Translations under genes and position numbers: made by a program
In this document: one piece after another, positions 18,415-41,145 of the stretch
How the letters are laid out: each line of letters starts with the position of its first letter
How positions within the stretch are numbered: the stretch's first letter is position 1
Notes under the pieces: generated by a model
What the model was told of the DNA's origin: nothing
The model's database searches: none
The model's input: the letters and a program-made list of their open reading frames with translations, nothing else
Assembly (NCBI RefSeq): GCF_000257645.1
Contig: NZ_AJHJ01000041.1
Coordinates: 1-41,187, forward strand
Length of the DNA: 41,187 nucleotides
Direction: 5' to 3'
Origin: Serratia sp. M24T3
GTDB taxonomy: Bacteria > Pseudomonadota > Gammaproteobacteria > Enterobacterales > Enterobacteriaceae

Positions 18415-19893
18415 ATGTCATCTTTATCTATTTCACAAGCCATTTTCCGTCTTAGCGATACGCGCACTCTCGATTTACCCGAGTTAACCTTGCGCCAGGG
18501 TGAAACCTGGTCTTTCGTCGGCTCGAACGGTAGCGGAAAATCGGCCCTGGCGCGTGCCATTGCTGGAGATTTGGTGTTATTGGAAGGCTCGCGCAACAGC
18601 GATTTCGGCAGCATTGTTCGCCTCTCTTTTGAGCAGTTGCAAAAGCTAGTCGCCGACGAATGGCAGCGCAATAACACCGATATGTTAAGCGCCGATGAAG
18701 ACGATACTGGCCGAACCACTGCTGAAATTATTCAGGAGCAGGTCCATGATGCGGCCCGCTGCGAGAAGCTGGCGGCGCAGTTTGGTATTGCGCACCTGTT
18801 GAGTCGACGCTTCAAATATCTTTCAACTGGCGAAACACGTAAAACGCTGCTGTGCCAGGTATTGATGCAACAACCCGATCTTTTGGTGCTCGATGAACCG
18901 TTTGACGGGCTGGACGTCAAGGCGCGGGAACAGCTGGCGGAGATGCTGGCAGAGCTTGCCGCTCAGGGCCAGACGATGGTGCTGGTATTGAACCGCTTCG
19001 ATGATATTCCTGATTTTATCCAATACGTTGGCGTGCTTGCTGACTGCTCTTTGGCGTCTGTCGGGCCGCGTCAGCAAGTGTTGTCAGAGGCGTTGGTTGC
19101 CCAGTTGGCGCATAGCGAAACGCTGAGCGGGATGAATTTGCCCGAAGCTGAGGATCCGACCCAGAAAGCCCTGTTGCCTGCCGATCAACCGCTGATCGTA
19201 CTTCGTAATGGTGTGGTTCAGTACAACGACAAACCTATCTTGCACGGGCTGACTTGGCAGGTTGATGTGGGACAGCACTGGCAAATCGTCGGTCAAAACG
19301 GAGCCGGGAAATCGACCCTGCTAAGCCTTATCACTGGCGATCATGCACAGGGTTACAGCAACGATTTAACCTTGTTTGGTCGCCGTCGTGGCAGCGGAGA
19401 AACCATCTGGGATATCAAGCGCCATATCGGCTATGTCAGCAGTAGCCTGCATCTCGATTACCGCGTCAGTTCAAATGTTCGCAACGTAATTCTATCCGGA
19501 TTCTTTGATTCGATTGGCATTTATCAGGCCGTTTCCGATCGCCAACAGCAGCTGACCACCCAATGGCTGGAACTGCTTGGATTGGGCGGACGCACGGCTG
19601 ATACGCCATTCCATAGCCTCTCCTGGGGTCAACAACGACTGGCGCTAATTGCGCGTGCGCTGGTCAAACATCCTGCCTTGCTGATCCTCGATGAACCATT
19701 ACAAGGTCTTGACCCGCTTAACCGCCAATTGGTGCGACGCTTTATCGACGTGCTGATCGGTGAAGGCAACACCCAGCTACTGTTCGTTTCCCATCATGCG
19801 GAAGATGCCCCGCAATGTATTTCGCATCGACTGACTTTTGTGCCGGATGGGGAGATTTATCAATACCAGATTGATGAGCTGGATCGCGGTTAG
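18415..19893 (+). CDS. modF: ModF, tandem ABC-ATPase protein linked to molybdate genes
   Basis: A 492-residue soluble protein of two fused ABC ATPase domains without membrane segments. Domain 1 has Walker A GSNGSGKS (about residues 37-44), signature LSTGE and Walker B LLVLDEPFDGLD. Domain 2 has Walker A GQNGAGKS, signature LSWGQQ and LLILDEPLQGLDP. Length and motifs match E. coli ModF; its exact role is uncertain (PhrA/photorepair-like in older literature). It follows modE by 175 nt. The leader has a compact hairpin around CCCGCGCGGG (about 18373-18382) nested in GACC/GGTC. The SD is AGGAG. Confidence 0.95.
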   Translation: MSSLSISQAIFRLSDTRTLDLPELTLRQGETWSFVGSNGSGKSALARAIAGDLVLLEGSRNSDFGSIVRLSFEQLQKLVADEWQRNNTDMLSADEDDTGRTTAEIIQEQVHDAARCEKLAAQFGIAHLLSRRFKYLSTGETRKTLLCQVLMQQPDLLVLDEPFDGLDVKAREQLAEMLAELAAQGQTMVLVLNRFDDIPDFIQYVGVLADCSLASVGPRQQVLSEALVAQLAHSETLSGMNLPEAEDPTQKALLPADQPLIVLRNGVVQYNDKPILHGLTWQVDVGQHWQIVGQNGAGKSTLLSLITGDHAQGYSNDLTLFGRRRGSGETIWDIKRHIGYVSSSLHLDYRVSSNVRNVILSGFFDSIGIYQAVSDRQQQLTTQWLELLGLGGRTADTPFHSLSWGQQRLALIARALVKHPALLILDEPLQGLDPLNRQLVRRFIDVLIGEGNTQLLFVSHHAEDAPQCISHRLTFVPDGEIYQYQIDELDRG

Positions 19894-19932: not shown

Positions 19933-19974
19933 TTAGGGATTGGGGCAGCGCACTAGGGTTTAATTCAGCATCTT

Positions 19975-20030
19975 GTGCTGCGCACGGCCTTTAATGCTGC
20001 GCATGGCTTAGGTGCTGCGCACGGCCTTTA
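19975..20030. repeat. three copies of an 18-mer boundary repeat (left set)
   Basis: GTGCTGCGCACGGCCTTTA occurs at 19975-19993 and 20012-20030, and a variant ATGCTGCGCATGGCTTA lies between them. A fourth copy opens the second large unit (20834-20852). The same motif in inverted orientation marks the right side at 21606-21623, 21626-21643 and 21767-21784. Confidence 0.75.
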
Positions 20031-20833
20031 GCTTAACTTCAAATTCAACTTCAACTTCAACTTCAAATTCAAATTCAAATTCATGCGCTGCGCTTACTGG
20101 GCTGCGGCCCAGACCGCCTCAAGGGTGGCCCTTGGGCCGCCACCCTTAAGAATCCCGGGCCCCTTTTCTCGCGACCAGATTGGTGCAAAAAAAAGTAGAT
20201 CTTTTCAGAAGCCCACGTGCGTGGCGTTGGCCACGGCCCTGCGGGCTGCCTTCACTCAGTCGGGAGCCAAAAGCGTCTCCCTTTCCTTCGCTCAGCGTAG
20301 GCCTGAGGCCGCCAATAGCAGCTAAAAAGAAAAACCGGCAACTCTACGGCGGTCAAAAGCCGATCTCACAAAGATAGATCTCTTAGGTTTGTTCGAGACT
20401 AAATATAACTTTTGATTTCGTTTCTGAATTAATAAAACCGATATTCACAAAATGTCACCTTCAAATGAAAGTTTTTGTCAGAAGAAAGGCCTTTTGACCT
20501 CAGCTTAGGTTGCCGGTTTTTCTTTAATAGCCCTGATTGGCGGCCTCGGGGCGGCGCTGAGGGAGTGAGAAAGACGTTTTTGGCTTTCGAACAAACGAGG
20601 GGACCGCGCAGCGGCGCGTCCAACGCCACATGCGGTGGCAACTGAAACGAACTCATCGTCTGGTGCCGTACAGGCAAACGACACCCAAAACGCGGAGATG
20701 CAAGAGGGCTCGCCCTGGAGACCTCTTGCCCGGTTCCGGCGCGGCCGGTTAAATGCTCATTGAATTTAGTGAACCGGAAAACGGCTCAGAGTTTAATGGC
20801 TTTAAAAGTTACTCGCGTCCAACGCAACTCTTG
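20014..20833. repeat. large palindromic repeat unit, copy 1
   Basis: An ~820-bp unit repeated in tandem as copy 2 at about 800-822 nt spacing. Order: boundary 18-mer; hexamer tract; hairpin CTGGGC-TGCG-GCCCAG (20097-20112); hairpin AAGGGTGGC/GCCACCCTT (20121-20147); a left arm (about 20205-20372); an AT-rich centre; an inverted right arm (about 20478-20660); a tail with stem CAAGAGG/CCTCTTG (20701-20728). The arms are homologous in inverted orientation; the best stretch is 17 perfectly complementary bases (20326-20342 with 20509-20525). Short ORFs inside (64-82 codons) look spurious. Confidence 0.85.
20037..20083. repeat. hexanucleotide tract (CTTCAA/ATTCAA), about 8 units
   Basis: Units read C,A,C,C,C,A,A,A followed by TTCAA, the last one partial. 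The matching tract in unit 2 (20859-20881) has about 4 units. The difference of 24 nt is the main length difference between the two large units. Confidence 0.85.
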
Positions 20834-21608
20834 ATGCTGCGCACGGCCTTTAGCTTAACTTCAACTTCAACTTCAACTTCATGCGCTTCGCTTACTGGGC
20901 TGCGGCCCAGACCGCCTCAAGGGTGGCCCTTGGGCCGCCACCCTTAAGAATCCCGGGCCCTTTTCTTGTGACCAGATTGGTGCAAAAAAAGTAGATCGTT
21001 TCAGCAGCCCACGTGCGTGGCGTTGGCCACGGCCCTGCGGGCTGCCTTCACTCAGTCGGGAGCCAAAAACGTCTCCCTTTCCTTCGCTCAGCGTAGGCCT
21101 GAGGCCGCCAATAGCAGCTAAAAAGAAAAACCGGCAACTCTACGGCGGTCAAAACCCGATCTCAGAAAGATAGATCTCTTAGGTTTGTTCGAGACTAGAT
21201 ATAACTTTTGTTTTCGTTTCTGAATTAATAAAACCGATATTCACAGAATGTCACCTTCAAAAAGAAAACTCTTGTCAGAAGAATGGTCTTTTGGCCTCAG
21301 CTTAGGTTGCCGGTTTTTCTTTGATAGACCGAATTGGCGGCCTCGGGGCGGCGCTGAGGGAGGGAGAAAGACGTTTTTGGCTTTCGAACGAACGAGGGGA
21401 CCGCGCAGCGGCGCGACCAACGCCACACACAGTGGCAACTGAAACGAACTCATCGTCTGGTGCCGTGCAGCTAAGCGACACCAAAGGGGCGCGGAGATGC
21501 AAGAGGGCTCGCCCTGGAGACCTCTTGCCCGGTTCCGGCGCGGCTGGTTAAATATCCATTGAAATTATTGAACCGGAAAAACTCCTCAGTGATTATTGAC
21601 CTTAAAAA
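20834..21608. repeat. large palindromic repeat unit, copy 2
   Basis: Tandem copy of the preceding unit with scattered substitutions and small indels (offset 796-800 nt in the body). It has the same order: boundary 18-mer (20834-20852), short hexamer tract, GC hairpins, left arm (about 21001-21170), AT-rich centre, right arm (about 21275-21460) and tail hairpin. No ORF with recognisable similarity or protein-like composition is present. Confidence 0.85.
20859..20881. repeat. hexanucleotide tract (CTTCAA), about 4 units
   Basis: Four pure CTTCAA units, the last partial, at the same place in unit 2 as the eight-unit tract in unit 1. Confidence 0.8.
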
Positions 21609-21625
21609 GCCCATGCGCAGCATCT

Positions 21626-21865
21626 AAAGCCCGTGCGCAGCACTCAAAACGCGGAGATGCAAGAGGGCTCGCCCTGGAGACCTCTTGCCCGGTTCCGGCG
21701 CTGCCGGTTAAATGACCATTAAAATGAGTGAACCGGAAAAAACTCCTCGGTGATCATTGACCTTAAAAAGCCTGTGCGCAGCACCCAAAACGCGGAGATG
21801 CTGCCAGTTAATTGACCATTGAATTTGGTGAACCGGAAAAACGCCTCATAGTTTATTGGTTTAAG
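21626..21865. repeat. two extra copies of the unit tail module
   Basis: The tail (ACGCGGAGATG, stem CAAGAGG/CCTCTTG, CCGGTTCCGGC, GGTTAAAT, TGAACCGGAAAA) ends units 1 and 2 and then recurs alone at about 21646-21765. It recurs again at about 21787-21865, where the whole hairpin between GGAGATG and CTGCC is deleted. Inverted boundary 18-mers separate the copies. Confidence 0.75.
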
Positions 21866-22155: not shown

Positions 22156-23172
22156 ATGTACGTTCTAGTGACAGGTGGTAGCGGTTACATTGGTAGCCAC
22201 ACTTGCGTTCAATTAATTGAAGCGGGCTATTCGCCAATCATTCTGGATAACCTTTGCAACAGCAAAGCCAGCGTTTTGGAACGCATCACTACTCTGACGG
22301 GTAAAACTCCCGTTCTGATCCAGGGCGATATTCGCGACCGCGCATTGCTGGACAAAATCTTCAGCGAATATAAAGTCGATTCGGTTATTCACTTTGCCGG
22401 CCTGAAAGCCGTGGGTGAGTCGGTGAACAAACCGCTGGAATATTACGATAACAACGTTCACGGCTCGCTGGTGCTGGTCGAAGCAATGCGCGCCGCTGGC
22501 GTGACTAACCTCATTTTTAGTTCATCGGCCACAGTTTACGGCGATCAGCCTAAAACCCCTTACGTTGAAGATTTCCCAACCGGAACGCCTTCCAGCCCTT
22601 ATGGCCAAAGCAAACTGATGGTTGAGAAAATCCTGCAAGATTTGCAGCGCGCGCAACCGAACTGGAGCATCTCTCTGCTGCGCTATTTCAATCCAGTCGG
22701 TGCACATCCGTCGGGCCTGATGGGTGAAGATCCACAAGGTATCCCCAACAACCTGATGCCGTTTATCGCGCAGGTTGCCGTAGGCCGTCGCGAGTCGCTG
22801 TCAGTATTTGGCAACGACTATGACACTCCAGACGGTACCTGTCTGCGTGACTACATTCACGTGGTCGATCTGGCCGATGGTCACATCGCCGCGATGAAAA
22901 CCCTGCATGACAAACCGGGCGTACACATTTACAACCTCGGAGCAGGTGTCGGCAAGAGCGTTCTTGATGTTATCAATGCCTTCAGCGAAGCCTGTGGCAA
23001 GCCGGTGAATTACCACTTTGCCCCGCGCCGCGCTGGAGATCTGCCAGCTTATTGGGCTGATCCGGGCAAGGCGGCCAAAGAGCTGAATTGGCGTGTAAGC
23101 CGTACTTTGGAAAACATGGCGGACGATACCTGGCTGTGGCAATCAAAAAACCCACAGGGCTATCCAGATTAA
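22156..23172 (+). CDS. galE: UDP-glucose 4-epimerase
   Basis: GalE interconverts UDP-galactose and UDP-glucose in the Leloir pathway and supplies UDP-galactose for surface sugars. The 338-residue protein (the E. coli length) is a short-chain dehydrogenase: NAD motif GGSGYIG at residues 7-13, catalytic SSSATVYG and the Tyr/Lys motif YGQSK. AAGGAG lies 6 nt upstream. It is first in galETKM; a GalR operator lies inside its 5' coding region. Confidence 0.98.
   Translation: MYVLVTGGSGYIGSHTCVQLIEAGYSPIILDNLCNSKASVLERITTLTGKTPVLIQGDIRDRALLDKIFSEYKVDSVIHFAGLKAVGESVNKPLEYYDNNVHGSLVLVEAMRAAGVTNLIFSSSATVYGDQPKTPYVEDFPTGTPSSPYGQSKLMVEKILQDLQRAQPNWSISLLRYFNPVGAHPSGLMGEDPQGIPNNLMPFIAQVAVGRRESLSVFGNDYDTPDGTCLRDYIHVVDLADGHIAAMKTLHDKPGVHIYNLGAGVGKSVLDVINAFSEACGKPVNYHFAPRRAGDLPAYWADPGKAAKELNWRVSRTLENMADDTWLWQSKNPQGYPD
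22175..22190. promoter_or_regulatory. gal internal operator OI (within galE)
   Basis: GTGGTAGCGGTTACAT inside codons 7-12 of galE is the E. coli internal operator sequence. Its centre is 110 bp from that of OE, close to the E. coli spacing used for DNA looping. Confidence 0.8.
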
Positions 23173-40837: not shown

Positions 40838-41145
40838 TATTGAAGTTTGAAGTTTGAAGGATCGTGGACTTGACCTCAAGGTTGCCGCTTTTGGTTTGAT
40901 GCTCATATTGGCGGTATCAGGACGGCGCTGAACGAAGTGATGAGAAACGATTTTGTTTCGAATCCGCAGTGAAGAAACCGCGAAGCGGCGCGACCTACGT
41001 CATGCGCAGTGGTAACTGAAACGAACTCATACTTCTGCCTCGATCTTATCGAGATAACAAGGCCGGGGATTCACAAGGGGAATGGCCTTGAATTCCTCTT
41101 GTGTCGGTCTGGGCCGATGCCCAGTAAGCGCAGCCTATGCTGTTG
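40838..41145. repeat. diverged solo arm of the large palindromic repeat family
   Basis: After a short GAAGTTT repeat (about 40842-40858) the sequence follows the same order as the inverted left arm of the 20-21.6 kb units: GACCTCA, GGTTGCC, ATTGGCGG, GGACGGCGCTGA, GAAGCGGCGCGACC, AACTGAAACGAACTCAT, GGGGATTCACAAGG, then GGTCTGGGCCGATGCCCAGT and AAGCGCAG. Identity is moderate, with many substitutions. No opposing arm is seen inside the window, which ends 42 bases later. Confidence 0.7.

Follow-up and report, generated by a model that had tools for sequence, protein, structure and literature searches.

What are the two long and similar units that follow each other between modF and galE, and what keeps such sequences in the genome? 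The question arose in a window of 41,187 nt (the whole stretch of DNA that was analysed), in which the intergenic stretch from the modF stop at 19893 to the galE start at 22156 holds the two units in tandem, with the genes around the array being co-directional. The first-pass annotation had described them as giant palindromes at 20014–21608, either a non-autonomous repeat or a large structured RNA. Enterobacterial extragenic repeats such as REP, BoxC and ERIC are usually thought to be short. Here we describe a much larger composite element in which the fold is kept by compensatory change, the arms are unlike and the copy number shifts between sister strains. ModF was 91% identical to that of Rouxiella badensis, 90% to that of R. 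silvae and at most 83% to that of the other 78 loci kept; as judged from sequence, the host genome is a Rouxiella species.

The claim of a tandem pair of similar units of about 0.8 kb was borne out. The units, about 797 bp long, are spaced 796–799 bp apart and share 93.3% identity over 741 aligned bases (piece by piece, 97% over 278 nt, 90% over 226 nt and 95% over 108 nt). Each opens with a hexamer repeat and a 72-nt end module (H1); the left arm and the inverted right arm come next, separated by a loop, and are followed by a degenerate copy of the end module in inverted orientation (H1'). H1 is made up of a small hairpin with a possible pseudoknot and then a hypervariable stem, and short repeats of 19 bp stand in direct orientation on the left of the array and inverted on the right. 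The array first delimited was real, but the span was too narrow, with repeats beginning near 19972 and right-end copies reaching about 21864. Likewise, inverted arms exist, but at a length of about 163 bp each rather than 170–180 bp and with an imperfect match (72–74%); in unit 2, the 82-nt arms at 20993–21074 and 21369–21450 are 74% complementary. The perfect 17-nt complement that had been pointed out in unit 1 is present and has a counterpart in unit 2. The features are as follows, where R1 is a covariance model of the 72-nt H1 made from 17 hand-chosen sequences.

19972–20030, plus strand: left end, three direct copies of a 17–19 bp near-palindromic repeat (GTGCTGCGCACGGCC type)
20035–20082, plus strand: preceding unit 1, microsatellite of 8 hexamers (AACTTC/AAATTC)
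20094–20166, plus strand: H1 end module of unit 1 (R1 match of 75.2 bits; covariation)
20197–20359, plus strand: left arm of unit 1 (72% inverted match to 20491–20653)
20326–20342, plus strand: 17-nt segment, perfect complement of 20509–20525
20491–20653, minus strand: right arm of unit 1 (inverted match to the left arm)
20684–20752, minus strand: degenerate inverted H1' at the right end of unit 1 (R1 20.5 bits, E 3.9e-4)
20857–20880, plus strand: preceding unit 2, microsatellite of 4 hexamers (AACTTC)
20892–20964, plus strand: H1 module of unit 2 (R1 match of 77.8 bits)
20993–21450, no strand assigned: two arms and loop of unit 2 (self-inverted match of 458 bp, 67%)
21483–21544, minus strand: H1' module of unit 2 (R1 match of 20.6 bits)
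21606–21643, minus strand: 19-bp end repeat in inverted copies, at the close of the array (repeat comparison)
21641–21794, minus strand: extra tandem right-end copy with H1' at 21644–21711 (R1 match of 21.3 bits)
21800–21864, minus strand: third right-end copy, shorter (repeat comparison)
41056–41127, minus strand: contig end, H1 of a separate and more diverged element (R1 79.6 bits)

A Pfam search of six open reading frames of the units gave nothing at the cut-off (a single weak match had E 0.06), and an Rfam search of the units gave no family at gathering score. The covariance model of TwoAYGGAY RNA (RF01731) found nothing at that score in the window or in the element at locus L205. No match to a window unit was present in phage and plasmid records, no match to the L205 element in phages, and no tRNA in the window. 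The description of a repeat that is present in many copies, greatly exceeds REP or ERIC in size and encodes no recognisable protein was supported. In the literature no description of the window element was found, most subscription-only papers on E. coli repeats (the RSA and RU-3 originals) being beyond our reach.

Confinement of the units to the modF–galE gap, which the first-pass annotation had named as a refuting result, was not observed: the family is dispersed well beyond it. A query of 1595 bp matched 64 pieces of the host's own genome (G000), with arrays on several contigs, and had many matches in the complete genome of another strain of this species (G060). Comparison of the flanks placed the arrays at the same sites in both strains, whereas the number of units, counted as strong H1 modules, was unequal at six of eight sites. 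There were two units at modF–galE in G000 and one in G060, and the other seven sites had 2/2, 3/1, 3/4, 3/1, 2/4, 1/1 and 0/4 units, respectively; the comparison omits arrays interrupted by contig ends of G000, and the tandem counts in G000 may err because this genome is a draft. In R. badensis the modF–galE gap is 356 bp without units, and in R. silvae it is 3.1 kb of other sequence.

At the 0/4 site, the array body is replaced in G000 by a gene from the cycle inhibiting factor (CIF) family, which lies between array-end remnants (L050:1557–2366, plus strand; about 40.1–40.9 kb of contig C28; PF16374, E 1.1e-42). Array sites may serve as entry points for strain-specific genes. Another Rouxiella genome (G002) had 196 unit matches, many of them right-half copies in tandem at a spacing of about 300–400 bp.

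The R1 model found matches in 14 of 24 named genomes. Ten of these belong to the Rouxiella, Rahnella and Ewingella groups, with 3–90 matches each: 7 in Rouxiella badensis, 3 weak ones in R. silvae, 11–67 in six Rahnella, 90 in Ewingella americana and 72 in 'Hafnia psychrotolerans', which shares its GTDB genus group with Ewingella genomes. The more distant Edaphovirga cremea, Pectobacterium peruviense, Yersinia massiliensis and E. coli E69 had 20, 4, 2 and 2, and no match was found in Yersinia frederiksenii, five Serratia, two Brenneria, one Pantoea and one Erwinia. Across the bacterial family, 55 of 392 genomes and 21 of 154 genera were matched when at most 12 candidates were scored per genome, and no genome beyond the Rouxiella, Rahnella and Ewingella groups had an E-value better than 7e-7. 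When 200 kb of G060, sampled at ten places, were searched with R1, there was no match. Copies also occur on Rahnella plasmids (10 of 13 and 11 of 11 matching records), and none of the 24 Rahnella plasmid matches listed had an annotated feature beneath it.

As RNA, unit 1 folded at -323.3 kcal/mol, compared with -238.1 ± 7.4 kcal/mol in 20 shuffles (z = -11.6), and one paired-module element of the relatives gave z = -15.6 with 100 shuffles. In H1 of an unfitted alignment (A1), we counted 48 cells changed on both sides, where shuffles gave 16.8 and slid controls no more than 19. Of all cells, 84.6% were paired; two of five covariation measures were not above the shuffles (both-sides-changed pairs, 101/500; pair types, 340/500). 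A fitted alignment (A2) of 106 distinct rows had 297 double-change cells, where shuffles gave 95.0 and slid controls no more than 36, with double changes in 13 of 15 pairs and 94.8% of the cells paired; one measure of five, the number of pair types, was not above the shuffles (350/500). Compensatory changes, the absence of which would have argued against an RNA according to the first-pass annotation, are present in the H1 stems of both alignments. Covariation was also seen in a candidate pseudoknot between the first loop and the bases that follow, with all of its three pairs double-changed, but in one register this helix is paired in only 58.6% of A2 cells. Covariation shows that the single-strand fold of the family is under selection. 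It does not single out RNA, because the folding of single-stranded DNA would leave identical covariation. The proposal of a large structured RNA may hold, although between 19800 and 22160 no promoter-like site was found (1.5 expected). The same stretch held one site resembling an intrinsic terminator (a G+C stem with a T run), compared to 4.0 in shuffles.

The modules come in pairs that face each other. In two genomes of relatives (G197, a complete genome of the Ewingella group, and G446), 51 of 54 neighbouring modules less than 700 bp apart were inward-facing, three lay on the same strand and none faced outward, as counted from 76 of 76 hits in G197 and 69 of 74 in G446. The median spacing from start to start was 504 bp in G197 and 443 bp in G446. 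If the two arms of an element evolved together, each arm would find its best match within its own element; the opposite was observed and such co-evolution was rejected. The mean similarity between the arms of one element was 73.1 in G197, compared to 139.7 for random pairing (n = 29; none of 20,000 permutations was as low), 67.2 compared to 116.8 in G446 (n = 22; fraction 5e-5) and 64.5 compared to 110.4 in E. americana (n = 12). At the middle threshold, 2 of 29 pairs in G197 (12.2 expected) and 0 of 22 in G446 (6.5 expected) joined arms of the same type. Because its own two arms are less alike than the arms of different elements, the element is not a true palindrome, and the term giant palindrome has to be dropped: the arms have diverged in the window and are kept unlike each other in the genomes of the two relatives.

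One asymmetric element inserted either way round would explain much of this unlikeness, and arm types 1 and 2 form 22 of the 29 pairs in G197. However, 18 elements of the Ewingella group had the type pairs 1-3, 1-5 and 3-5, which do not fit two fixed ends, the borders of the types hinging on the clustering threshold. This suggests that more than two types of arm are combined, still subject to the rule of unlikeness. At one orthologous site in five Ewingella-group genomes, arms and ends differed, and one element was truncated with a BoxC-type hairpin (L300). In G446, tandem small hairpins (ACCTTGGGTTGCCACCCAAACTGGC) and a CCGAGAAAGTTTCGGTTTTTC motif were seen upstream of many modules (L369–L390), and the mosaic therefore reaches past the modules.

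The elements sit preferentially at gene ends. The 13 elements in 400 kb of E. americana, in stretches that were partly picked around known hits, were flanked by convergent genes in 8 cases, by co-directional genes in four and by divergent genes in one. Of the 290 other gene pairs, 48 were convergent (P = 5e-4). Of 40 fetched loci, which include orthologous copies and some of the 13 E. americana elements and were called with a crude ORF caller, 24 were convergent, 14 co-directional and 2 divergent, compared to 30 convergent of 145 in G060. Rho loading (rut) as a general rule was rejected, as C exceeded G in 36 of 102 module flanks and in 212 of 438 gene-end controls. Chains of at least four YC dinucleotides with a 6-nt period occurred in 16 of the 102 flanks and 9 of the 438 controls.

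We suggest that the family is a large modular BIME-like extragenic repeat with a selected single-strand fold, probably located at mRNA 3' ends, and we regard this reading as evenly poised between right and wrong. An element would be an inward-facing pair of modules, each composed of a small hairpin, a hypervariable base-paired stem, a conserved tail and then an arm of more hairpins. The left module would be read in sense by read-through from the left gene and the right module by that from the right gene, so that each transcript would carry a stable terminal fold able to halt 3' exonucleases. Such folded ends could also keep two converging transcripts from pairing or colliding. That the fold acts in RNA at mRNA 3' ends is what we infer from position and orientation; on the other hand, the right module of the window copy is not in the sense of galE. 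Copy number might change through recombination, gene conversion and tandem duplication. We read the unlikeness of the arms, from sequence comparison, as selection against long perfect palindromes, which would keep the arms of an element from becoming alike.

Several other explanations have to be weighed. The element could be a non-autonomous DNA transposon (MITE), in which the H1 modules are the inverted ends of an element with an unidentified or lost transposase and the fold serves transposition. It resembles MITEs in its terminal inverted repeats (the inward modules and the inverted 19-bp ends in the window), in its many dispersed copies without a protein and in the mosaic way in which ends and arms are combined at orthologous sites. 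Nevertheless, we consider this fairly unlikely: no alignable empty site that could show a target-site duplication was found (the 356-bp gap of R. badensis is too diverged to align), the other sites compared held remnants, different elements or unrelated sequence, and all compared sites were identically placed in both sister strains. The sole transposase family searched, Y1 (Y1_Tnp, PF01797, the RAYT family), was matched in 7 of 21 genomes, in none of six Rouxiella genomes and in neither of two Rahnella with 48 and 52 modules. A RAYT as the partner of the family was rejected because PF01797 was not found in the six Rouxiella genomes; to our knowledge, RAYTs are known for GTAG REPs only, and we know of no mobilising enzyme for the family.

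BIMEs hold sites for gyrase, IHF or Pol I, and the elements may act as topological or nucleoid sites of the DNA at convergent gene ends, with the fold as a by-product of cruciform-prone sequence. Convergent placement, as reported for REP (PMC1525189), is consistent with this. However, the stems covary while their sequence changes freely, which favours the fold over a sequence-specific duplex site and makes such DNA sites distinctly unlikely. Covariation and strong folds would also be expected if each unit were an independent large non-coding RNA gene, which is highly improbable in view of the lack of a promoter-like site and of an Rfam match, the variable number of units and a placement tied to the ends of neighbouring genes. 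Finally, microsatellites at the module borders, changes in unit number and the separate duplication of unit ends are reminiscent of recombination debris, that is, functionless tandem repeats growing and shrinking by slippage; this is very doubtful, because it leaves the compensatory changes, the inward pairing and the convergent placement unexplained.

REP and BIME (such as the PU-BIME of E. coli) are extragenic palindromic units that form mosaics and inverted pairs near gene ends and between convergent genes (PMC3733652 and PMC1525189). Our family shares with them a multi-copy, intergenic location at the ends of convergent or co-directional genes, but REP/BIME units have 20–40 bp, whereas in our family a module takes up about 200 nt and an element about 540–800 bp. 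The BoxC/PIT/TMECO intrastrand triplex repeat is a G+C-rich extragenic stem whose inverted pairs in K-12 always couple a type A with a type B motif (PMC4666352), resembling the unlike arms of the family. The BoxC consensus CCCTC..GAGGG..GAGGG, as given in PMC4666352, was missing from the window, from L205 and L217 and from the dusC region of K-12; on this published consensus, identity of the E. coli H1 stem with BoxC was ruled out. Hairpins of the BoxC/TMECO kind replace the element or sit inside it at two Rahnella/Ewingella-group loci (L298 at about 1043 and 1438; L300 at about 1795 and 1886). ERIC/IRU, YPAL/RU-2 and RU-3 are likewise intergenic, foldable and enterobacterial, but with 127, 168 and 103 bp (PMC2229807) they are shorter than the 540–800 bp of our family, from which they are set apart by published lengths, not by alignment. 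Thus, the kind of sequence, an extragenic foldable repeat, is known, while the size, the pairing, the unlike arms and the reach appear to be new as far as our searches go.

Weak R1 hits in E. coli E69 (L196), a Klebsiella-like genome (G269), Edaphovirga, Pectobacterium and Y. massiliensis revealed relatives that keep the order of stem, CCCGGGCTC-type tail, GC hairpin and more hairpins. The K-12 relative lies unannotated at about 2229160–2229390 of NC_000913.3, in the 372-bp gap between the convergent yohP and dusC. When 5426 E. coli genomes were searched with a 210-nt query from it, 5375 were matched, 5356 of them over at least 80% of the query, with a median of three places, and no annotated feature lay beneath any of the ten matches listed. 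With blastn, the K-12 sequence matched 30 of 81 loci of the family in 32 pieces (best E = 1.3e-14). Among the best 25 of these 32 pieces, those in Ewingella and Rahnella elements were mostly 41–48 nt of H1 at 80–95% identity; the window units were absent among the best 25, and the link to E. coli therefore runs through R1 and the intermediate genera. The E. coli relative may already have been named in the literature, and it might be kin to RU-3 or RSA.

Tentatively, and with more doubt than belief, we extend our proposal to modular 3'-end elements throughout the Enterobacteriaceae, in which two facing and necessarily unlike modules at gene ends would keep converging transcripts apart and protect the 3' ends of both mRNAs. 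These elements would have been amplified to dozens of copies in Rahnella, Ewingella and Rouxiella, with one or a few unannotated copies persisting in almost all E. coli. With the relative between yohP and dusC of K-12, the role of such elements at gene ends becomes testable in a laboratory strain.

Hairpins of at least six pairs with a GGA loop were found neither in the two window units nor in four other elements of the Rouxiella, Rahnella and Ewingella groups. GGA-loop hairpins were observed in the related elements of E. coli, Edaphovirga, Pectobacterium and Y. massiliensis. Large elements of Edaphovirga cremea (L395, L398 and L392) carry several of them in their arms, together with an H1-type stem, and these hairpins may resemble CsrA sites. 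At an Enterobacteriaceae locus (L183), a match to TwoAYGGAY (RF01731) at 1821–1884 adjoins an H1-type module, and a DsrA match lies at 988–1074.
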